Shown here piece after piece: positions 3,529 to 41,621 of a stretch of 64,000 nucleotides of DNA. The DNA lies in contig NC_133227.1 of assembly GCF_040436345.1 (NCBI RefSeq), positions 27,420,171-27,484,170 of the forward strand. Direction: 5' to 3'. The stretch comes from Pagrus major (lineage: Eukaryota > Chordata > Actinopteri > Spariformes > Sparidae). The translations under genes and the position numbers were made by a program. Position 1 is the stretch's first letter. Each line of letters starts with the position of its first letter. The notes under the pieces were generated by a model that saw only the letters and a list, made by a program, of their open reading frames with translations, made no database searches and was not told the DNA's origin.

Positions 3529-3601
3529 GTTTCCGTAGTGTAGTGGTTATCACGTTCGCCTAACACGCGAAAGGTCCCCGGTTCGAGACCGGGCGGAAAC
3601 A
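3529..3601 (+). tRNA. tRNA-Val (anticodon AAC), copy 2
   Basis: This is a second 73-nt tRNA-Val, identical base for base to the copy at 2391 in the mature region, with anticodon AAC and intact A and B boxes. A run of T (about 3609-3618) supplies the Pol III terminator. The flanks differ mostly, except for TGAACGCC upstream and a related fragment about 83 nt downstream. So the two genes have been kept identical or duplicated as a unit. Confidence 0.97.
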
Positions 3602-3742: not shown

Positions 3743-4007
3743 GAGCTGTGGTGTCCGAAATACAATTATTTTGGACTTTTTTTTACTGGATATAAGAAGT
3801 TTTAGACTACTTGAGTTTGGAGATATAAAAAAGCTGAACTATCATTATATTATTATTGTCTTTAAGATGATTAGAGTACGGTTTAGAAGGGTACATTCAT
3901 TTATAATTTAAATTTTTGAGTCGTCGTGTTTTATTCTGAAAGGTCCGTACTGTACAGAGCGGAGGGCGTTTTCATCAAAACAGAAACTTAAAACGACATT
4001 TTCTCTG

Positions 4008-4069
4008 ATTGGACGCTGATACCTGCGAGCACTCGGGCCAATGAGCGAACAGCAGGGGGGCTATATAAA
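4008..4069 (+). promoter_or_regulatory. H2A promoter: two CCAAT boxes and TATA box
   Basis: An inverted CCAAT (ATTGG, 4008-4012), a direct CCAAT (4038-4042) and TATATAA (4063-4069) precede the H2A start by about 65-126 nt, the usual arrangement for replication-dependent histone promoters. Confidence 0.85.
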
Positions 4070-4091
4070 GGTGGAGTCCGCCGATGTTTGA

Positions 4092-4517
<426 letters not shown>

Positions 4518-4547
4518 AGACCTGAACCCGGCTTCAACCAACACAAC

Positions 4548-4563
4548 GGCTCTTTTAAGAGCC
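4548..4563 (+). terminator. H2A histone 3' stem-loop
   Basis: The sequence GGCTCTTTTAAGAGCC forms a 6-bp stem and 4-nt loop 31 nt after the stop. It matches the SLBP binding element. A purine-rich stretch at about 4571-4585 (AAACTAAAGACGA) is in the right place for the U7-binding downstream element. Confidence 0.95.
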
Positions 4564-4599
4564 CCCCACCCGAAACTAAAGACGACATTTCCTTTATAT

Positions 4600-5861
4600 T
4601 AGTGTGAGATGGTGTTTAGTTTAATTGTAACGCAGTGACATTCAACTAAAATCTTAATTAAACGATATATAGTGTCTTACAGATGTGTTTCAAACAACGT
4701 CGGAGGTCCACTCCTTTTTTATTAAACGTTCATCCAGGTGCCTTTTTCTATCACAAGTGAACTTAAATGTGTCCCCGAGGTTACAGACGCCATTATACAT
4801 CGTATTTCCCGGCACTTTTATCCTCTAACGTCCCTAAACATCACACTTTACTCCGCAAACACCCACTTCCTGCTTCACATGAGTGCCACCATCAATTGTG
4901 TCCCCCTCAGCGCTGGAGTAACGCCCCTTCCGGTTTCCCTCACAGCACCTTTTTTTATTCAATAACTAAACAGTTTAGAGGTCTGCTAATTAAAAGGAGT
5001 GCATTTTAAATATGTAGTCTAATTGTTTTTGCTTTCGAGCCAGTTTTTATGAATGTAATATTTTGCTATAATAATAAATGAATCATGTACATTTCATCTG
5101 GGGAGAAGTGAGTAAAGTATTTGTCAGTGACATTTCTGAAAGGTATTTGTAAATCAAGCCAAAAGGCAGTAGTATGGAAACAATCTGTAAAAACATCACA
5201 GTCACAAAAAGATAAAAATAAATTATTTGTCTCACTTTATTCACTACCAAACAAAGTTTTTTCTGAAATAAGGTCAACAGGAAGAGGCCTCCAGCCTTGG
5301 CTCTCTGTTTACTGCCCACTTGGACACTCACACAGTTTTGTTTTGTTTGTTTTTTTGCAATATTCCTGTACATTATTCTGTTGTTTGTAGCATTTATTGC
5401 CAGTTATTACAGATTACAATATTATCTATGCTGAAGTTAAAGTGTAAGTAGGCTACAAAGCAAATCTCTTTGCATGTCTTGCTGGTAGTGTTCATATAAT
5501 TTATATTATTATTTTATTAATAAGAAAATACACTAATACACACTTCTCAGAGTTAGTTATTGGGTTATTTTTGCTTGTCACCTGATTTTTTATTTTGTGT
5601 TTTGTGAATACTTCTGGTCACAAATGCATAAACACACACATGCACCCATATCCCTAACTAATTATGAGTAATGTAGATTTAATGCACTTTTTTCTACAAT
5701 CTATTCTTATCTCTATATATTCTGTAGTTTTGTTTTGTTTGTATTCTGGAAGGAGAATAATAAAACCAGAGGGAACTTCAGTATTTGATATTTTCATTGA
5801 TGTTTTAAACCAGTATTGTTGTGGTTGTTTCGGACATGTTACTCTCATAGTGTCGGTGTGT
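4600..5861. other. Spacer between H2A and H3
   Basis: No gene is supported. A weak match at about 5259-5300 to a dispersed repeat also present at 36.7 and 57.7 kb (TTCTGAAATAAGGTC and GGAAGAGGC) suggests that a transposon remnant sits between the histone genes. Confidence 0.4.
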
Positions 5862-5877
5862 GGCTCTTAAAAGAGCC
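5862..5877 (-). terminator. H3 histone 3' stem-loop
   Basis: On the minus strand the sequence is GGCTCTTTTAAGAGCC, identical to the H2A and H4 elements, 30 nt past the H3 stop. It is the SLBP recognition hairpin. Confidence 0.95.
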
Positions 5878-5907
5878 GTTGTGTTGTTGAACAGGTGCGG
5901 GGTGAGT

Positions 5908-6324
<417 letters not shown>

Positions 6325-6383
6325 TCAGCTGTCTTCTCTGTGTCACAGATCAGGACTCGATGCTGACTGACGGCCAACAGCGG

Positions 6384-6453
6384 CTTTATAAAGACACCGC
6401 TGGAGTGACGTCAGCACAGAGCGACTCCCGCGCTGCAGCTGATCAACTATTGG
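6384..6453 (-). promoter_or_regulatory. H3 promoter: TATA, CRE and CCAAT
   Basis: Reading toward the gene on the minus strand there is a CCAAT box (complement at 6449-6453), a perfect palindromic cAMP-response/ATF element TGACGTCA (6406-6413) and a TATAAAG box inside CTTTATAAAG (6384-6393). The TATA box is about 70 nt before the start codon. Confidence 0.8.
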
Positions 6454-6767
6454 AGGGAAACATTCAAACTAACCAATCAGACACAGCGACTGTTACAAGG
6501 ACCCATCTGACAGGAAATGATTAACTGACACTTTTTTACAAGGAAAGAAAAATCTTAATGTTTTGTACTTAATGCCGAATTTACAAGAAGGCGCCAATTA
6601 TATGAAATGTGCCATAGCAGTTTCACAAAGTTGGTTAAGTTTCTCCTCACGATGCGACAACTCTTAAAATTACTCGATTTGTAAGGGACACTGGGATAAT
6701 GACGTTACTAGTGACTTCACTTTATTACGTGCCCTATATCCATGACTTCTGATACCCGCTTTGTTCA

Positions 6768-6842
6768 GCAGGATAATCTTCACAGATAAACACCACTGGT
6801 GTGATTTTTGAAGCGTAAATTAAATCTCTAGCAGTAAAAAGC
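6768..6842 (+). repeat. Dispersed repeat family A, 5' fragment
   Basis: This segment, containing AATTAAATCTCTAGCAGTAA, matches the start of long copies at 29.94 and 34.25 kb. It is truncated after AAAAAGC, so only about 75 bp remain, lying between H3 and H4. Confidence 0.7.
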
Positions 6843-7566
6843 ACAAGGAGAAGAATGAACTTGCTGTTGCACATTGTTGCCTCAGTGTGTAAAGAACAAA
6901 ATGCAAAGCTCCTTGATATTTATGTGCCACCATCCAGATCTTCAACCCGCATCACCGAGCCAAAATGGGGCGAAAATTAGCGTGCCCACCCCAGTGTGAT
7001 GTTTAAATTTGAAGGACTGTTTTGTACTTTGTTCCTTGCTGGACTGATATTATGTGTAACCTTCGTCCTCACAGTAGTAGGCCATACCATCATGGTGAAT
7101 ATTAGATATCCTACTATGCTGTGCCACCAGGGTGCATGTTGTATTTTTGATGCATCGCACGAACAATGCATTCATAGTGTTTCACTTTTTGTGCAGATGA
7201 CATCCTGCCTCGCCTCCATCCTGCTATCAATAACCTTAGGGTCCAGTTACAAATATGTGAAATCAAGCAAATGACCATCACCTGCCGGTGAGGCACACAA
7301 AAATCAGTTTGATGGTTTACAGTCAATTTGAGGGGGGGTCAAACACACATCTTTATGTTTTTGGTCGTGTCATTGACTTCACTGGTTGAAGTTCACCAAT
7401 GTTGAAGTCAGCAAAGCAGAGACACCACTGTGTTTAGCCACCGGATGCAAATGTTTATTTTGTCCATTCGCTTGTCTAGAATTGAACTTGCCACTGATGT
7501 TTATGTGTATGTGTGACCGTATCCTGAAAGCTGGTTTATAGATACATAACCTCTGAAATTACGGTT

Positions 7567-7753
7567 ACATACCGCCATTCCGACATACCGCCATTCCGAC
7601 ATACCGCAATTCCGACATACCGCAATTCCGACATACCGCAATTCCGACATACCGCAATTCCGACATACCGCCATTCCGACATACCGCCATTCCGACATTG
7701 TACTATTCAGACATACCACTATTCCGACATGCTGATGTCCCGCCATTCCGACA
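7567..7753 (+). repeat. 16-bp tandem repeat (GACATACCGCCATTCC unit)
   Basis: About eight near-perfect 16-bp units followed by degenerate ones. The main variation is C/A in CCGCCATT versus CCGCAATT, with the two forms grouped in blocks. Because 3 x 16 = 48, the minus strand reads open as a 16-residue peptide repeat (GMSEWRYVGMAVCRNC). I regard that reading as a by-product of the repeat, not a gene. Confidence 0.93.
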
Positions 7754-7941
7754 AGGCTAACCCTAACCCGTAACCCTTTTAAAAGATTTGTCGGCATGGC
7801 AACACGTTTAAACAAGAAAAAAATACCACCATTCCGACCTTAGGAGGCAAAAATTGTCGGAACGATGGGATGTTTAATTAAAGGTTTAAGTGTTGCCATT
7901 CCGACAATTAGGGCCTAATGTCGGAATGGCGGTCGCCTCCT
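7740..7941. repeat. Nested inverted repeats built from the 16-bp unit
   Basis: The CCGCCATTCCGACA core recurs downstream in both orientations. At 7895-7930 GCCATTCCGACA and TGTCGGAATGGC face each other across a TTAGGGCCTAA centre, giving 17-bp arms with one bulged base. A wider pair, TTAGGAGGC (7840-7848) and GCCTCCTGA (7935-7943), brackets it. The layout suggests a small hairpin-ended mobile element whose end was amplified into the tandem array. Confidence 0.75.
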
Positions 7942-8079
7942 GAAATTACACCCCCAGAACACTGATTGACGGTGGGCTTTATGTGACCTACATCAACTCC
8001 TCTTGCAAAATGTATCACAACTGTTCAAATGACGACATTCAAAAGGTATTTTCACTTTCAGCTGCTGAACATGTAGGAA

Positions 8080-8153
8080 GGACCGTCGAGTCTGGCCCCG
8101 CCCACCAAACCGAACACGCGTCTTCCTTTACGTCCGCAGACAGGCTGTAAATT
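8080..8153 (+). promoter_or_regulatory. Probable H4 promoter (GC box, weak TATA)
   Basis: Upstream of H4 are GGACCG (8080-8085), a GC box CCCCGCCC (8096-8103) and a poor TATA-like TGTAAATT (8146-8153). There is no canonical TATA or CCAAT box, unlike the three neighbouring histone promoters. Confidence 0.5.
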
Positions 8154-8198
8154 CAGAGTGTCTGCAGCGCGCAGGCAGTTGACTTTGTTGAAGACTAA

Positions 8199-8519
<321 letters not shown>

Positions 8520-8553
8520 ACCTCGTCCTGACCCGCTGATACCGAAACCCAAC

Positions 8554-8569
8554 GGCTCTTTTAAGAGCC
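8554..8569 (+). terminator. H4 histone 3' stem-loop
   Basis: GGCTCTTTTAAGAGCC, a 6-bp stem with TTTA loop, is the SLBP-binding hairpin. It is identical to those of H2A and H3. Confidence 0.95.
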
Positions 8570-8584
8570 ACCCACCCGCTCTGA

Positions 8585-9252
8585 AGAGACGGTTCCTGAG
8601 TTATAATGTTTATCATGTGGTTGAAACACTTATAATCTGTGGTAGTTCATTAATTAAGCATCTTAAAGTAAGCAAAGTGAAAACATCCCTCTACAATCAT
8701 TCAACTTGTTCTGCAGGGAATGTAAAGATGTAACATGTTACTGGTACTGCTGATAGTCACCAGATAATACACCCCTGAAATCACAATGTATTACATTGGT
8801 TAAGGGTGTTTCAGAGTTTCACTTGACATCTAAATTATCTTCTTTGGCCACCAAAAACTATGCAACACATTTATTGCACCCATACCTATTTTATTTCTGG
8901 AACAATAACAGCCCCCCTCAACCAAAGAGAGTAAACTAGTAAATATTGCAAATAGAAAAATAACTTTATATTCCCATTGTGGGAGTATTGGCTACTGTTG
9001 GTCTTCCAAAATGATCAAGATGTTCGGTGAATTATTAAACGAGAATCTGAATGATTAATTTAAACCTAAACCAGAGTCAGTCGTTGTTCTGTTAACTGGG
9101 CCAGTCTCTACTTCATCCCAGAAGTAATTCATAAATTATCTTGAGATTATGTTGAATTGTGACAGTTAAACATTAAAGTAAAATCCACCTGGGTTTGTTA
9201 TAAACACCAGTGTTATAATAAAGGGAACGAGCTCTTGGTAGAAGCAGTGTGT
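8585..9252. other. Spacer between H4 and H2B
   Basis: AT-rich sequence in which I see no gene, strong repeat or regulatory motif beyond the flanking histone 3' elements. Confidence 0.5.
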
Positions 9253-9268
9253 GGCCCTGAAAAGGACC
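9253..9268 (-). terminator. H2B histone 3' stem-loop, divergent form
   Basis: On the minus strand the sequence is GGTCCTTTTCAGGGCC, 25 nt past the H2B stop. The 6-bp stem is kept by compensating changes (C-G for T-A, and a T-G wobble) and the loop is TTTC instead of TTTA. It still fits the animal consensus GGYYYTNYTNARRRCC. Confidence 0.85.
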
Positions 9269-9293
9269 TTTGTGTTGGCGGGTATCAGCGGGT

Positions 9294-9665
9294 CTACTTG
9301 GAGCTGGTGTACTTGGTCACGGCCTTGGTGCCCTCGGACACGGCGTGCTTGGCCAGCTCCCCGGGCAGCAGCAGGCGCACGGCGGTCTGGATCTCCCTGG
9401 AGGTGATGGTGGAGCGCTTGTTGTAGTGGGCCAGGCGGGAGGCCTCGCCGGCGATGCGCTCGAAGATGTCGCTCACGAAGGAGTTCATGATGCCCATCGC
9501 CTTGGAGGAGATGCCGGTGTCGGGGTGCACCTGCTTCAGCACCTTGTACACGTAGATGGCGTAGCTCTCCTTCCTGGTCCTGCGCCTCTTCTTGCCGGAC
9601 TTGCTCACGGCCTTGGAGACGGCCTTCTTGGAGCCTTTCTTCGCTGCTTTGGGTGCATCAGGCAT
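9294..9665 (-). CDS. Histone H2B, replication-dependent
   Basis: An intronless gene of 123 residues. The frame is open further upstream, but the start at 9663-9665 is chosen because [16 protein letters not shown] is the expected H2B tail and the TATA box lies only 54 nt before it. The fold is canonical: [33 protein letters not shown], the [49 protein letters not shown]-terminal half, and the ubiquitin-acceptor lysine in AVTKYTSSK. The tail is a few residues shorter than the usual 124-126 and reads [22 protein letters not shown] has Ser where Asn is common. It pairs with H2A. Confidence 0.98.
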
Positions 9666-9718
9666 GATGAGTTTGTTCTGTATGTCACAAAACGAGTACC
9701 TACCCTGCGAGCTGACCG

Positions 9719-9775
9719 CTTTATATTTCCGTGTCTGATGCAAACACAGCTGTGCCCTCGCTCTCACGGGATTGG
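9719..9775 (-). promoter_or_regulatory. H2B promoter: CCAAT, near-octamer, TATA
   Basis: On the minus strand there is a CCAAT box (complement ATTGG at 9771-9775), GTTTGCAT (complement at 9738-9745), which is one base from the H2B octamer ATTTGCAT, and TATAAAG (complement at 9719-9725). Confidence 0.8.
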
Positions 9776-9829
9776 CTGAGTGTTGTGCTCCACACTGCGC
9801 ATGCACGGAAATGAAACCCTCCTGAACTC

Positions 9830-10332
9830 TGACTGTGACACTGTGTGAAAATCACTGTTAGGTTTCAATAAGCTCAGACAGGAAGACCAGTTTGTTAAAA
9901 ATAATAATTAGTACATATAATAAGTAAATATTTACACTTCAAGACAATAAAGGCTACTTTACGATACGCATATTGAATTAGTTTCACAAATGTCATAGAA
10001 ATATGCTGTTTATTTGCGTTAAAAGGGCGCTATGTAGTTTCGTAGAAGAAATTCAAACACTGAATTTTAATATTTACAATAATAATGAGGTAATACGTGA
10101 ATAAACAAGCTGTTCTCAGAGGAAAAAAGTGTCCCCAGAAAACAGTTTGATGCTAAAAGAGTGGCAGGGTCCGCCACATATAAACAAAGTAAAACAATAT
10201 GAAATTGTGTTGTCCTTTAAGGTCTGTTTGTTCATCCAGTTTATTCCATCATGAAAACGTAGAGAGTTTGTTTATTTAGACGTCTCTTCCCCAAAACTTC
10301 ACAGGGCTCCTTTCAGAAAATAGTTGCAGAAG
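9830..10332. other. Spacer upstream of H2B
   Basis: AT-rich, no supported gene and no fifth histone. No H1-like lysine/alanine-rich reading frame is seen. Confidence 0.5.
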
Positions 10333-10495
10333 TTAAAGGTGCTGTTTGTAAGAAAAGTGGATTTTTGAGTTTCATTCCCAACTCGTCAAATAATGAAAAA
10401 ATGACACTCTGTCCTACGATCCCAAGGCATCAGTTTTTGACGAGTTGGCAATGAGACTCATAAAAATCAACTGCTCTTACAAACAGCACCTTTAA
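10333..10495. mobile_element. Short foldback MITE with TTAA target duplication
   Basis: Terminal inverted repeats of about 17 bp (AGGTGCTGTTTGTAAGA and its complement) are flanked by TTAA at 10333-10336 and 10492-10495. Inner arms AACTCGTCAAA (10380-10390) and TTTGACGAGTT (10436-10446) also pair, so nearly the whole 163 bp can fold into one imperfect hairpin. It has no coding capacity. TTAA duplication is typical of piggyBac-type transposition, so a non-autonomous relative is likely. Confidence 0.8.
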
Positions 10496-11054
10496 AAGTC
10501 TGTCCTGATATAACAACACATCAACCACGGATACAACCAGGTGTAGTTTCACCATATCCTGGATGTAGAATAGGCCCAAGCCATTTGCAGCACAGTAGGC
10601 AGATACAGTGTCCTAACCACTAACATTGCCCCTGTAGACACACATAAAGCAGCCTGTCAGCTGTTCTGTGGTCAGAGAGGTTTTCAAAATTTCCAAATGA
10701 AAGCAAACATGTTCAAAAGCAAAATTAAACCAATTTGTTTACAATTAGGAATGTGAAATATGTACGAATTTTTCGTCCTGTATTTGGAAATAAGATTATC
10801 TGCTACTTATCGATGTATCAGTGAAATGATAAATAGAGCCAATATTATGAAGTCAAATTGCTTTAACTGACTGAAAAAGCATTTATAATCTCCGATACAG
10901 TAAATAGATGTTTGCACCTTGAAACACAGAGAAGAAGAAGAAGAATATGGATTATGTAACTCAAGATTGCCTCAAAAGAAATCAATGCAAAAGCGCTTAA
11001 TAAGCTTCATGTGTCATTTACACTGCTCATTGCTGGTGGACTTTAACGCTGGGG

Positions 11055-11208
11055 TGTCCGATGCGTCCCTGAAGGCGGCCTTCAGAGGAAGTTTGGACGT
11101 GTTGCAGCGCTGCAGCTTCACACACGTTTCTGTCCACAAACACATCGACACAACACACTTCACCAAACTCGTCCACCTCCAGGTGACCGCCGTGTGCTCC
11201 GGTCGTTG
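11055..11208 (+). other. Putative noncoding first exon of the five-module gene (contains fragment copy 3)
   Basis: The sequence ends at a good donor, TTG|GTAAGT (11206-11214). The next good acceptor upstream of the 880-residue frame is TTTCTGTACACAG at 12719-12731, giving a 1.5-kb intron. Joining these creates an in-frame TGA in the only long frame through this exon, so the exon is untranslated if real. It carries ATGCGTCCCTGA, a three-codon upstream frame, and its 11055-11120 part resembles the fragments near the tRNA-Val genes (SDASLKAAF versus SDAYLKAPL). The true 5' end is unknown. Confidence 0.45.
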
Positions 11209-12731
11209 GTAAGTGCTCGTATGTTGTCACTCTCTGCCAAATGATTGATTAAACTGATTAATTGAACCGCTTCTGTCCACATGCTAACGTTAGCTTTCCT
11301 TTGAGGGGCTAATGTTAGCTTCAACGCCGATTTCGGTGTATTTTTTGGTTTGGAAAACAAGTGTGCAGGTTCGCTCTCAGCAGACAACACGGTCACCAGC
11401 GGGCGGTGGTGCTGTTTCACGTATTAAGCCGCAGGTTTGATATAAACTGAGTATTTTTGGACTTTAAAACAGAAGTTGTGTTTGCATGCGGCGGCCATTT
11501 TGTTGCATCCAAGTCCAGCTGGGAAAAATGACACTCGGAAATAAAGCGCTTTTAAAACTTAAATCATACTTTTAATAGAAAAACACGATGCAAGAGTGTT
11601 AGAGGTGAATGTACTCAGAAGAGGTATAGTTGAAGATGAAATTAATTTAAAATGAGTTACCAAATCCAAATGGAGTGAAAGTAAACAAATGGACTGAGAA
11701 GAAATACAATAATACAAACAATATGTGTGTTTTGTTTAATCTTGAGAGTGTTAACAACCTTTTTATTCAAAGACAAATAGGTTGTCTCGGTATAAAGTTT
11801 CTGAGGTGATTCATGTAATTAAATATGGGTTTAATTCTGTGAAATTGTTATTTAAATTGATAACAAAAAGAGTCACCTTCAAATTGTCAAAGAGTAGGAA
11901 ACAGACAGGATTGTTTTTAATGTTTGGTTTGTGACTTGTGAACAATATCTATCTATTACAAATGCACAATTTTGCTGTAGTGGTTTTTACTTGAGCAAAA
12001 GTACAGAAGTGTTATCAGCAAAATGTGTTTAAAATGTCACAAATAAAATTACCTTTTTTATATAAAGTGATCCAGTAACCCAGTATCGGTGACACACTAT
12101 ATTTGAAATGCTCGTTAATATTGTAAATGCTAATTTATTGATATGTTATATGTGTGTGAATATATTGTAGATGCTTGAGGTTTTAACTACTATATATTGA
12201 TAATAAATATATCAGTACATCTGAGCGATAGTGAGACGATTAAGAAGAAACAATAAAGCTCTGCGGCACAAATTTGTCTAGACTTCCTTAAATCACAGAT
12301 ATCTTAACACATGAGTGGCCTCAAACAGACGCTGCTCTCTGTCAAGGTTTAATCTTTAGCAACCTTGTGTTTTTCATATGTTCTGACCAACAATCAAAAA
12401 GCCAAAGATAAAAAACTTGAAATGGTATTAAACTTGAATAAAAAAGCAACATATCCTTGCACTTCAGAAGCTGGAACTGGAGAATAATTGACATTTTTGC
12501 TTATAAACGACTTCAACGATAAACAGATTTGATATTCCTTTTAACTGTCATATTTTGGCGACAGTGATTGTAGCATGGACATGTTTATACCAACACATCC
12601 AAAGAATGAGGCATCATAAATCTAGCAAGTTGATCCCACAGCTCCCATATTCAAAGGTTTTAGGATTATAAATAATAATGCCGTGTTAAATAACTTAACT
12701 CACTCAAGCTCAATGTTGTTTCTGTACACAG
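11209..12731 (+). other. Putative intron
   Basis: This is the interval between the GTAAGT donor and the pyrimidine-containing TACACAG acceptor. It is AT-rich and lacks long open frames. GCTAACGTTAGC near 11283 is a perfect 12-bp palindrome. Confidence 0.4.
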
Positions 12732-12819
12732 ACTGAGAAGATGCTGTGGTGATGCAGTAACAGTGGCGGTTGCTTGGACTCTGTTCTGAGGACTCTTTGG
12801 GGGATATTTGGATATCGAC

Positions 12820-15462
12820 ATGGATGGCATCGATGACTACATCTGGCAGCGCCGCATCCACCATGGCGTCAGGTATCAGAAAGGCGCGGTCCCGTTCCCA
12901 CAGTCGGTTGAAATTGGGCTGGAGTTCAACGCGGCACTGGAAAGGAAGGAAAAGTTAGATGAGAGTCTGCTGACGAATGGCGTGATGGTGGATATTTGTG
13001 ACTTTGCCAAAACGGTGACTAAGTCCGAGAAGTACTTCTTATTCGAAATGCTAGAGTTCAACTTTGACCTCGGCGTGGACATGGACAATGACAAGCAGTG
13101 CTATGAATACGCAACACGTATTCACGGTAAAATAAAACTTTTGAAGGAACAAATCAAGTTCAAAACTCAAAGATTTAGAGAAACGTTTCTGCTGCCTGAC
13201 CAAAACGCTATAATGAGGCTTAGTCAGTCAAAGAAAGGACGAGACTACTGCCCTAAAAGGAACAAAATCGTGGATGCGTCGGTCCTCACTGACGGCAGCA
13301 AGAACGGCCAATCTTCAGAAAATCAGATGACGGCGAGTAACGGAGCTGTGAGCAGTTCGTGCGTCATAAAGAGACGAGGAAGAGCAAAGCTAACGGGAGA
13401 TGCTTACCCTTTCTGTAAAGAACTTGGTGTGACTCTGATTTTCCAATCAGACGATCCACTGAGACAGAAACTGGACCGAAGTCTGGTGACCAACATTGTG
13501 ATGATGGAGCTGTTAGACTTTTCCAGAGTGCTTTGTGGAACTCACACTGGGATAGTTTGTGACTTAGTCAAGCAAAACTTCGGTCTTGAGTTGGATAAAA
13601 CGGTACTCCGTATGTGCGTGTCCAAGCTGACGGAGCGACGGTATACCTGCATAACAGCCGAGGCCAGGGACGCTTTCAGAAAGGAGCCTTTTAAAGTCAC
13701 AACCAAGAAACCGGAGCAGAATTGTAGAAAGAGGAAAAAACCTGACACCAATTCTAAAGAAGTGGAAAGACTAACAAAAGCCAGTGAGAGATGGGGAACG
13801 CTGACAAACGGGGACGACGATGGTGACCTTTCGTACATGTGTCCCGTTGATTTTGAGACAGAAATGCAGTCAGGAACAGAAGCAAAACCAGAAAAAATGA
13901 TGATTGTTTCTCCAGCAAAGTCTGCAGTGTCCATGGACGTAAAGCAGGAGGAGGAGGAAGCTTTTGTCTCACCTGTGCAGCCTTTAACAAACGGCCACAA
14001 CTCTAGTTCATTTAACCCTCGTCCAAAGACCACAACAACCCTCAGAGCAGTCTCAGATCTGATGTCTGAAGATACAAATGAGGACATAAATGTAAAAGAT
14101 CTGAAACAGAAGCTGTGGAGGAGGCGTGCACCTCGCTCGAAACAAATCCTGAAGTCGAGCAAAGTGAACGACTTGTTTACCCACTGCAGGAAGATCGCTT
14201 TAGACTTCAACGTCGGTTCAGGGAACAAACAGAACGTGGATCTGAAGCTGCTCACCAACCACGTGTTGTGGGAGATTTATAGGTTTGCAAACTTGTTGAA
14301 AAAAAGTGCACAGAGTTTCTTATTAGAAATTCTGGACGTCGGCTTCAACTTTGTCCTCCAAGATGAGACGCAGCAGCGCAATTTTATATATTACATGATA
14401 ACAAAGGAGAAGATTCTTCAGAGCAGCCCTGATAGATGGAAAATGGAGTTTCTCAACAGTCCTGTTCGGTTCCCCGAAGTTTACAACACGGTTGACATGA
14501 CAAGCGAGAGTCAAACGGTGGCGGAGCAGGAGCCCGGCGTGGAATCACCGGCCTCGGCTACAAACCAGCAGACCGACATGGAGCCACACCAGTTCTGTAA
14601 CAAGTTAGGGCTCAACCTTTGGTCGACAAAACAACGTCAGGCGAGCCAGAAGCTTGATCTGAACACCCTGACCACGGGCGCCACGCTCGAAATATTCAGC
14701 TTTGTCAGAGAGCTTTGTGGAGAAGTCCGTGAGGTAGTTAACGACATCCTTGAGCACAATTTTGATGTTGATCTTCAAAGTGGTGCGACAGAGGCTGCAA
14801 AGGTGATCCAGAGATGGTACACAACACAGAGATACTTGATAAAAAATCACTACAGAACACCAAAAGCAAACAGGTGGTTGAACGCGGTTGTCCCACTGAA
14901 GGGTCATGTGAAGCTTGGTCCAAAACCACCGACTCACAACCACCCGGAGGATCTGGATACAGAAGACGTGAAGCCGATCAGAGAGGCTTTGGATGCAAAA
15001 ATGCAACAGGTGAAAAAAGTCAACAGCTACTGCATCTGCAAAGAGATTGGACTGGACCTTGAGATCAGTAGAAAGTCAGAACCCAAAAAGAAACTCGATT
15101 TGCGATTGCTGACGAGAGGAGCCCTCCTGGAGATCCACCAGTACGTAGAACAAAACTCCAAGAGGTACGTTCCCAGTCTGTACGAGATTCTGGAGTACAA
15201 CTTCGATCTGAGCCCTCTGAAACACGGGAAGGTGGAGTTCGCCTGGTCCATCGCATCTAAGGCAGTCGTTATAGCAGACAAAATCAGCAGAAAGGGGGAT
15301 TATCTGAACAAAGTGTTTGAGTTGCCCTTCGAGGTCTCGCAGTCCCCGCAGATCAAAGAGGAACCGGAGGACGACTTCAGCGAGCCGGACCTTCACGATA
15401 ACTCGGACGTCGTGTTTGTTCGAGAACTGAAGGCCGTTGACATCGAAGTCGAGATTGAGTGA
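12820..15462 (+). CDS. Unrecognised 880-residue protein with five ~80-residue repeated modules
   Basis: One uninterrupted frame starts at the first in-frame ATG (12820, context gacATGG); an in-frame TGA lies at 12787. Two tiny upstream frames (12740, 12752) follow the putative acceptor. The protein contains five diverged copies of a module at about residues 30-115, 198-277, 455-533, 592-673 and 737-822. The shared pattern is C-K-x-(I/L)-G-L-x-L, a basic spacer, KLDLxLLTxGxLxEIxxF, then about 12 residues and (L/V)xEILExNFDL, predicted to be mainly helical. Linkers are Lys/Arg-rich (RKRKKPD, WRRRAPRSK) or acidic. Two SUMO-type sites, VKQE (Lys375) and IKEE (Lys846), the latter near an acidic tail with DVVFV, suggest a nuclear protein. 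No enzyme motif, zinc finger or membrane segment is seen. I do not recognise the family. The length and preserved repeats argue for a functional gene. Confidence 0.85.
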   Translation: MDGIDDYIWQRRIHHGVRYQKGAVPFPQSVEIGLEFNAALERKEKLDESLLTNGVMVDICDFAKTVTKSEKYFLFEMLEFNFDLGVDMDNDKQCYEYATRIHGKIKLLKEQIKFKTQRFRETFLLPDQNAIMRLSQSKKGRDYCPKRNKIVDASVLTDGSKNGQSSENQMTASNGAVSSSCVIKRRGRAKLTGDAYPFCKELGVTLIFQSDDPLRQKLDRSLVTNIVMMELLDFSRVLCGTHTGIVCDLVKQNFGLELDKTVLRMCVSKLTERRYTCITAEARDAFRKEPFKVTTKKPEQNCRKRKKPDTNSKEVERLTKASERWGTLTNGDDDGDLSYMCPVDFETEMQSGTEAKPEKMMIVSPAKSAVSMDVKQEEEEAFVSPVQPLTNGHNSSSFNPRPKTTTTLRAVSDLMSEDTNEDINVKDLKQKLWRRRAPRSKQILKSSKVNDLFTHCRKIALDFNVGSGNKQNVDLKLLTNHVLWEIYRFANLLKKSAQSFLLEILDVGFNFVLQDETQQRNFIYYMITKEKILQSSPDRWKMEFLNSPVRFPEVYNTVDMTSESQTVAEQEPGVESPASATNQQTDMEPHQFCNKLGLNLWSTKQRQASQKLDLNTLTTGATLEIFSFVRELCGEVREVVNDILEHNFDVDLQSGATEAAKVIQRWYTTQRYLIKNHYRTPKANRWLNAVVPLKGHVKLGPKPPTHNHPEDLDTEDVKPIREALDAKMQQVKKVNSYCICKEIGLDLEISRKSEPKKKLDLRLLTRGALLEIHQYVEQNSKRYVPSLYEILEYNFDLSPLKHGKVEFAWSIASKAVVIADKISRKGDYLNKVFELPFEVSQSPQIKEEPEDDFSEPDLHDNSDVVFVRELKAVDIEVEIE

Positions 15463-17640
15463 AGTCGTAACTCCTGTTTTCATTGTAGAAATTGGTGCTC
15501 GTGATGATTTATAGGGCTGGGTTTTAAAAAAAAAACATTTTGATATCTATTCATATAATCCTGAGATTGATCGTTAATTTCCCTTTTCACCCGCCAAGCA
15601 CAAGATGTGGGTAGATCCTTCTTTGGTCGCACACTGACGGATTAATGTTTGTATTAAAACAGTCCTGTAATTACAAAAAAAGTGCTTCATGGTGCATTCA
15701 GGCGCACCTTGTAAACTCTGTAATGTACTCGAATGGCCACAAAGGTTGTTAAAACGGAGAAACTGACATTTTTGGATCACGTTTTGAATTTTTGCATTAA
15801 AAATGGATTTGATCTCTATAATTAATAGTTCTTTACATCTTTTTTTTATTTTTATATATGCGTTATTGAAAGGTTATTGTATTCAACTGCATTAGTTATA
15901 GCTGAGTGGAGCCAATAACAAACTGACAACTGAATGTAAATATTTGATTTTTACTTCCTACTTCTGTCTCTGGAAGCGATTTCAATGGAAATGTTTTCTC
16001 CAACTCACATTATTTACATTAATGTTAAACATTATAGATGACGTCCACTTGATCTCTTTCGTTCTATTGAAGCTTGTAAAAAAAGAAAACTCTTCATCGC
16101 AGCTAAACTGAGGTAATACAAGGATAAATTCAGCCGGTTACTCCGGTTTGACAGTGTAATCTCATTTATACACGTTTTGTTTCTGCAGCGAGTAAAACAA
16201 AAGAAGTCATCGCATCATCTAATAAAGACGGTCGGTTATATCATTGGCTATATATCTCAGCTAGTTTACCATTGGTATATAAATGTGTCGTGTCTTATTT
16301 TCTTTCTGTTTTGTTGCCTTAAATCGTCCACACATTCGACACTAACACACACATCCACAGTCCTTAAATAACAAATCAAAAAACTAGGTAGGAAGCGTTT
16401 TGTACAATTACATCTTCATCTACAAAAGCAGCTCAGTAGAGTCTTGATGATTGAGCCTCATGTGACAAAGTTAAAGGTGGATTTGTTCTTGATTTGTGGA
16501 TGTTTGCATAAAAAGATGGATGTTCTTGTAAAAACAAGCTGCTGAATGTCATTTTATGGCCAAATACTTGTTTTTTTTTTTACAAAAGTGGATGGGAGCA
16601 TATTTTCCCACCTTGGTTGTTTTTGATTTAATTATCATGTTCTGTTGTTTGGACTTTTCTTTCGACTGCACATTAAAGCGTCTTTAATCTTCATTAAATG
16701 TTTGTTTCATTTTTTCCCCCTTACTTCCTCAGAGGGCATATTGTTTGTACTTCTTACTGTGCTATAATTTTGCAACATTTTGCAGGTTGTTTTGTTTATC
16801 TATCCGACATTAAATGAACAGAATCAGCAGCGTGCCATCCCATAATAATAATGACAGACTTCACTTCCTCATTATAATTGATTACATCACTAATACTGCA
16901 CATTAAGACTGAGTTAATGAAGTCAGCGTGCATTTAAATGATTCAATTTAAACATCAGCAATAATTACAAGAGACTAATTACGTTTCATTAGGCTGATTT
17001 TGCTTTTTGTCTTCCCATCGTGCTCTCTGTCACGACTCGTTTGTCTCCTGCCGGGCCGAACCACATTAAACAGGTGTTGATAGAAAACATGATTCTGATT
17101 CTCAGATAAACGAGTTGTTTCCGTTCGGCGGTCACTAGATGGAGCCAGAGACGTTTAAATGCAGCTCAGAGCTTTAGAGACTTATTAGAGAGAGATTAGC
17201 AGTATCTGATACATGTAAAAAGGTCCAATCGTGTTTTAATCAGCTACATAATTTTGCAAAAATCAGGTAATTTCTGTCATTCAATGATTATTTCATCTCT
17301 CCTTGACTGCTGTAACTCTGTAAGTCTTTCTCAAACATCCCAGCTTGACATTTAACAGGTTAAAAAAAAAAATGTGACCATGACGCATCTATTTTTAGCA
17401 TCTTCACATTGGTCACCTGTGTCTGTCAGTGCCTCACTTTAAATCACTTATTAAAACATTTATATAAAGCTGCTTTTAACACCTGATTTAGATGATTTTA
17501 GCTTTGTTTTATTAATCCAGGTTTTACTTATTTCATTTCCCTGTGTCACACTGCCGGCTGTTTATGTTTATATTTGCGATAACGACCGCGATTACTTGCT
17601 TTTCTGTGATTTTGTGATTCCTTGTTGATGAGTTGCATGT
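15463..17640. other. 3' flank of the five-module gene
   Basis: No further coding exon is supported. AATAAA at 16221-16226 and ATTAAA at about 15796 are possible polyadenylation signals. A run of ten A at about 15527 follows GGGCTGGGTTTT and may belong to an inserted repeat. Confidence 0.4.
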
Positions 17641-40744: not shown

Positions 40745-41055
40745 CCAGCAGTGTCTGTGATGTTTTGTGTGTGTGTTTAAGCTGCTGTGTTTCTTCCTGC
40801 ATTATAGATGACTGACACAGCGCACGTATCATATCTGAACCTCAACACTCGAAATTCCTGCTGATTCCCGCGTTTCCTCTTCCACCGCGAAAAAACATGC
40901 TCACAACCCCTTCGGTTACGTCTCAGGAAGACTCCCGCATGGTTTTGTACTCTAAATCCTGAAATATTGAGCTCTTGGAGGTAAGGTTGTGACTTTTAAG
41001 GTGTGATTTTTTCATCTCCAGTCCTGTAAAAACATTGCTCATCATTTTCTACAGA

Positions 41056-41621
41056 GCTTTGGGCTAACAGCTCCCTTAGATTTGGCCTAACATCTCCCTT
41101 AGCTTTGGGCTAACAGCTCCCTTAGATTTGGGCTAACAGCTCCCTTAGCTTTAGGCTAAAACCTCCCTGAGCTTTGGGCTAACATCTCCCTTAGATTTGG
41201 GCTAACAGCTCCCTTAGCTTTGGGCTAATATCTCCCTTAGCTTTGGCCTAACAACTCCCTTAGCTTTGGGCTAATAGCTCCCTTAGATTTGGGCTAACAG
41301 CTCCCTTAGATTTGGGCTAACAGCTCCCTTAGATTTGGGCTAACAGCTCCCTTAGCTTTGGGCTAATATCTCCCTTAGCTTTGGCCTAACAACTCCCTTA
41401 GCTTTGGCCTAACAGCACCCTTAGCTTTGGGCTAATAGCTCCCTTAGATTTGGGCTAACAGCTCCCTTAGATTTGGCCTAACAGCTCCCTTAGATTTGGG
41501 CTAACAGCTCCCTTAGATTTGGGCTTAAACCTCCCTTAGCTTTGGGCTAACAGCTCCCTTAGCTTTGGGCTAACAGCACCCTTAGCTTTGGGCTAACCGC
41601 TCCCTTAGCTTTGGGCTAAAT
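41056..41621 (+). repeat. 23-bp satellite array, about 25 units
   Basis: Head-to-tail units contain TTTGGGCTAACAGCTCCC and are joined by TTAG(C/A). Variants are frequent at a few sites: AGCTTT or AGATTT, GGGCT or GGCCT, AACAG, AATAT or AACAA. The marker GCTAATATCTCCC followed by GGCCTAACAACTCCC recurs at 41224 and 41362, exactly 138 bp (six units) apart, showing a higher-order repeat. It begins and ends abruptly in unique sequence. Confidence 0.96.

Follow-up and report, generated by a model that had tools for sequence, protein, structure and literature searches.

Proteins that string small helical modules along flexible linkers are already a known kind, and one described small helical domain is the HSR domain (PF03172), a self-association domain of the SUMO-linked nuclear proteins Sp100, Sp140 and AIRE. 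Here we describe a gene from a 64,000-nucleotide stretch of the Pagrus major genome (contig NC_133227.1, positions 27,420,171 to 27,484,170 of the forward strand; hereafter "the window") encoding an 880-residue protein in which a helical module occurs five times in diverged form, together with its twelve-module paralogue on another chromosome, C22. What is new is the domain family, not the general kind of protein; the HSR domain serves as an analogy for how such a protein might work, and for that alone.

The five-module gene is a single long coding frame (12820-15462, +): the frame is open from 12790, its first ATG stands at 12820, and 880 codons run without an internal stop to the stop codon at 15460-15462. 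Third-position GC is 0.57 in the frame, against 0.41 across the whole window. Compared with the paralogue, amino acids are constrained and silent sites are near saturation, and on this sequence evidence the frame is a genuine, conserved protein gene, as a preliminary description of this DNA had proposed from the uninterrupted 2.6 kb. That it is instead a decaying pseudogene or a functionless open frame is extremely improbable, given the 880 stop-free codons and the constraint on its amino acids.

The modules, each helical and of about 85-110 residues, occupy residues 21-132 (module 1, type A; 12880-13215), 191-287 (module 2, type B; 13390-13680), 448-554 (module 3, type A; 14161-14481), 587-682 (module 4, type B; 14578-14865) and 734-844 (module 5, type C; 15019-15351), all on the forward strand and each assigned from profile, shuffles and tree. 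They have in common a pattern of approximately C..GL.L.V......KLD..LLT.G.L.EI..FA..L......ILE.NFDL..Q. Local scores of the ten module pairs (55-113) all exceeded every one of 1000 shuffles (means 23.6-27.1), the pair closest to chance being P2-P3 (score 59, shuffle maximum 57). A profile built from the five modules finds them again in the window protein by construction (five domains, 109-118 bits), and the same window-only profile finds twelve domains of 47-70 bits each in the C22 paralogue. This independent detection, with the ten pairs, bears out the earlier suggestion of five ancient, diverged copies.

AlphaFold predicted the same helix order and spacing in a type C module (module 5; predicted local distance difference test score, pLDDT, 74.6; helices 5-10, 33-46, 50-61 and 71-91) and a type B module (module 4; pLDDT 62.8; helices 11-16, 39-53, 56-67 and 78-97, in a query that begins six residues earlier), an agreement that is not independent, since both models drew on the same five modules. 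The modules are predicted to share a four-helix layout, in keeping with the helical unit first proposed. Two cysteines, the second in LCG, are invariant in seven of seven type B modules, including the two in the window (13390-13680 and 14578-14865); a metal site, a disulphide and simple core packing are candidate explanations. The main rival to the reading that we develop below takes the modules to be DNA-binding helix-turn-helix (HTH)-like domains and the protein to be a multi-domain DNA-binding factor. DnaA domain IV and other HTH domains show no sequence match to the module, no HTH protein stood among the matches listed for the second AlphaFold model, and we regard this alternative as unlikely.

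No library that we tried has a name for the module, as the preliminary description had anticipated. Neither the window protein nor the paralogue, none of the 17 modules and four consensuses, and none of three submitted linker and tail stretches had a Pfam match above cut-off; NCBIfam gave no match, PHROGs one row (E 3), PDB sequences no match or single rows with E above 1, and scans of viral and prokaryotic contigs, which reach close relatives only, no relative. Pfam DUF6739 (PF20524) was matched by the type B consensus only (E 0.0034), with 15.9 bits where the cut-off is 27, and was absent with all 17 real modules. The modules might also be diverged HSR domains of the Sp100/Sp140/AIRE class, self-associating in nuclear bodies: they bear a resemblance to LxTN...E...VLxxLExxFxL, and HSR genes are present in the same genome (four matches over cut-off). 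The Pfam HSR profile nevertheless matches none of the 17 modules and none of the four consensuses, up to E 10 within the HMMER filters, and a profile comparison with an HSR sequence of the genome, a weak test with one sequence, aligned a single column with probability 0.2. No HSR protein was among the matches listed in two comparisons bearing on the HSR fold, absence from such lists not excluding an HSR fold. We consider an HSR identity very unlikely. Should domain libraries truly lack the module, descriptions of animal proteomes miss a family, represented here by two genes with 17 copies between them, and its carrier proteins are without any domain annotation; the family may already stand in databases as uncharacterised entries.

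A search of the genome detected one other locus, on C22; its open frame spans 2629 codons and includes an ATG frame that encodes 2625 residues and 12 modules (L011:1303-9180, +, equivalent to C22:22824302-22832179). Queried with the whole paralogue, the genome returned solely the window gene and the C22 gene (four rows), and queried with one paralogue module it returned ten rows in the paralogue, five in the window gene and no third gene, in a search that scores the best candidates only, exon by exon, such that distant or split relatives may escape. Identity between window gene and paralogue is 27-41% in the six module pairs compared. In a tree of the 17 modules, support is 98/94 for the type C clade, 91/90 for B against the rest and 91/90 for A; of the three, only the C clade attains the star level of the tree program, and long branches lead to four of the five modules from the window. 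The tree gives a module order of A-B-A-B-C in the window protein and A-B, A-B-A-B-C, A-B-A-B-C in the paralogue. In the paralogue each of the five type A modules is preceded by a leader, WKLRxNxxxQIxS; this leader is resembled in the window protein by LWRRRAPRSKQIL before module 3 (14113-14151, +), and by eye we recognised a weak copy (WQRR) before module 1 (12844-12882, +). The two genes are alike in module types and order, in their one long frame, in the type A leader and in the tail motif IKEExED, and unlike in that the paralogue has twelve modules instead of five and underwent a later internal duplication. By these sequence comparisons, the pair of ancient paralogues found in this genome defines a small family with module types A, B and C and the array A-B-A-B-C. 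The five-copy gene and its later-grown twelve-copy paralogue offer an internal comparison for the function of the array.

Acceptor-like stretches were seen by eye upstream of both genes, one ending at 12731, 88 bases upstream of the window ATG, and one 49 bases upstream of the paralogue ATG; the latter was absent from a strict pattern scan of L011, the result of which was at chance level. At most they hint at one coding exon preceded by a non-coding first exon in both genes. Part of the paralogue's acidic, KxE-rich tail, PELDTEE with its flanking residues, is found again in the stretch that separates modules 2 and 3, which suggests that gene copies fused head to tail.

With five module pairs pooled, the window protein differs from the paralogue's two ABABC units by a proportion of synonymous differences (pS) of 0.77 and 0.78 and of nonsynonymous differences (pN) of 0.45, with 95% bootstrap intervals for pS minus pN, one per unit, of 0.23-0.40 and 0.26-0.41; a control of one random codon pairing gave pS 0.80 and pN 0.72. 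Because silent sites are near saturation and amino acids are held, the split between the two genes is, by this codon comparison, old and the modules have been under selection. The two ABABC units differ from each other by pS 0.31 and pN 0.17, and the low pS indicates that the paralogue array grew later. Long selection in place of recent expansion, as originally argued, holds for the window gene, the paralogue having expanded later. Within the paralogue, the ratio of nonsynonymous to synonymous substitution (dN/dS) ranges from 0.31 to 0.93 over nine module pairs. The two highest values, 0.70 and 0.93, and the single long coding frame of each gene would fit a capture from a transposon or a virus, the gene then being kept for defence and its long paralogue evolving fast. 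Such a capture is quite improbable: two loci only were detected in the genome, viral contigs yielded no relative (close relatives only were sought) and predicted viral structures none that convinced, and dN/dS is 0.31-0.47 in the remaining seven pairs.

On the basis of its architecture, its basic clusters such as RKRKK and the shared tail motif IKEExED, we tentatively read the window protein as a multivalent, probably nuclear scaffold with docking modules and a SUMO-linked acidic tail, a reading to which we give somewhat less than an even chance. RKRKK, the longest of four basic clusters listed in the protein, lies in the longest linker (13726-13740, +). The tail motif is IKEEPED in the window protein (15352-15372, +; ψKxE at residue 845) and IKEEHED in the paralogue, and six of its seven positions were reached in 3 of 1000 shuffles. 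Further into the acidic tail stands DVVFV (residues 863-867), of which VVFV (15409-15420, +) is a possible SUMO-interacting motif. The mechanism that we propose is a reasoned guess: each module would be a small docking domain, flexible linkers of basic or polar character would connect the five, and SUMO would be both attached and bound at the acidic C-terminal tail, which carries the conserved IKEExED and the VVFV patch.

Several points weigh against the scaffold reading. The AlphaFold confidence is only moderate for one module (74.6) and low for the other (62.8), and the two models are not independent. SUMO-interacting-like four-residue patterns are common in the window protein (ten listed, VVFV among them), and ψKxE is not in excess, with 2 matches against 3.2 expected from shuffles in the window protein and 7 against 7.1 in the paralogue. 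The tail limits of the IKEExED shuffle test were chosen after the motif had been seen, and docking function, nuclear place and SUMO use are inferred. The two ψKxE sites of the preliminary description do exist, at residue 374 (VKQE, 13939-13950, +) and residue 845, in a number below the shuffle mean; its nuclear SUMO scaffold gains from the tail motif common to both paralogues and loses from ψKxE counts at chance in both proteins. A broader proposal would have an undescribed helical domain family, carried as long arrays in two single-frame genes, five modules being kept in one and twelve grown in the other under partly relaxed or diversifying change, acting as multivalent chromatin or nuclear-body scaffolds; taken whole, we think it improbable.

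The five-module gene lies beside core histone genes, named by eye from sequence as H2A (4134-4517, +), H3 (5908-6318, -), H4 (8208-8519, +) and H2B (9294-9665, -), the nearest of which, H2B, ends 3.2 kb away. A scan of 3800-16500 found four histone 3' stem-loops, one per histone gene (one above and three below the Rfam cut-off), and none of this type at the five-module gene. Open frames of at least 40 residues from about 50 kb around the paralogue were set against frames from the window and from the 20 kb preceding it, and no histone match occurred within about 20 kb on either side. The adjacency to the histone cluster is therefore most likely incidental as judged from the two loci, and a link between the gene and that cluster, whose position the preliminary description had called intriguing but weak evidence, is not supported. 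H1 was not noticed among the frames listed in the window, and the N-terminal start of H2A appears slightly unusual.

Other elements were observed in the window and at the C22 locus. Two tRNA-Val (AAC) genes of equal score (2391-2463 and 3529-3601, +) lie 1.1 kb apart upstream of the histone genes. Tandem arrays occur between H3 and H4 (7567-7730; 16-base unit, 10.2 copies) and at 41055-41619 (23-base unit, 24.6 copies, 90% matches). Downstream of the paralogue is a Tc1-type transposase frame of 358 residues (L018:1288-2361, +) with HTH_Tnp_Tc3_2 and DDE_3 above cut-off. A further frame (L021:2097-2666, -) contains PPPKVNPWTRKMNAVTVVSVNGQ, reminiscent of LARP1, and matched no relevant Pfam family; the name LARP1 is therefore provisional. 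Finally, window 10070-10251 and L019:8450-8607 at the C22 locus are alike, their translations being 76-83% identical on both strands, and this common stretch is probably a dispersed repeat.
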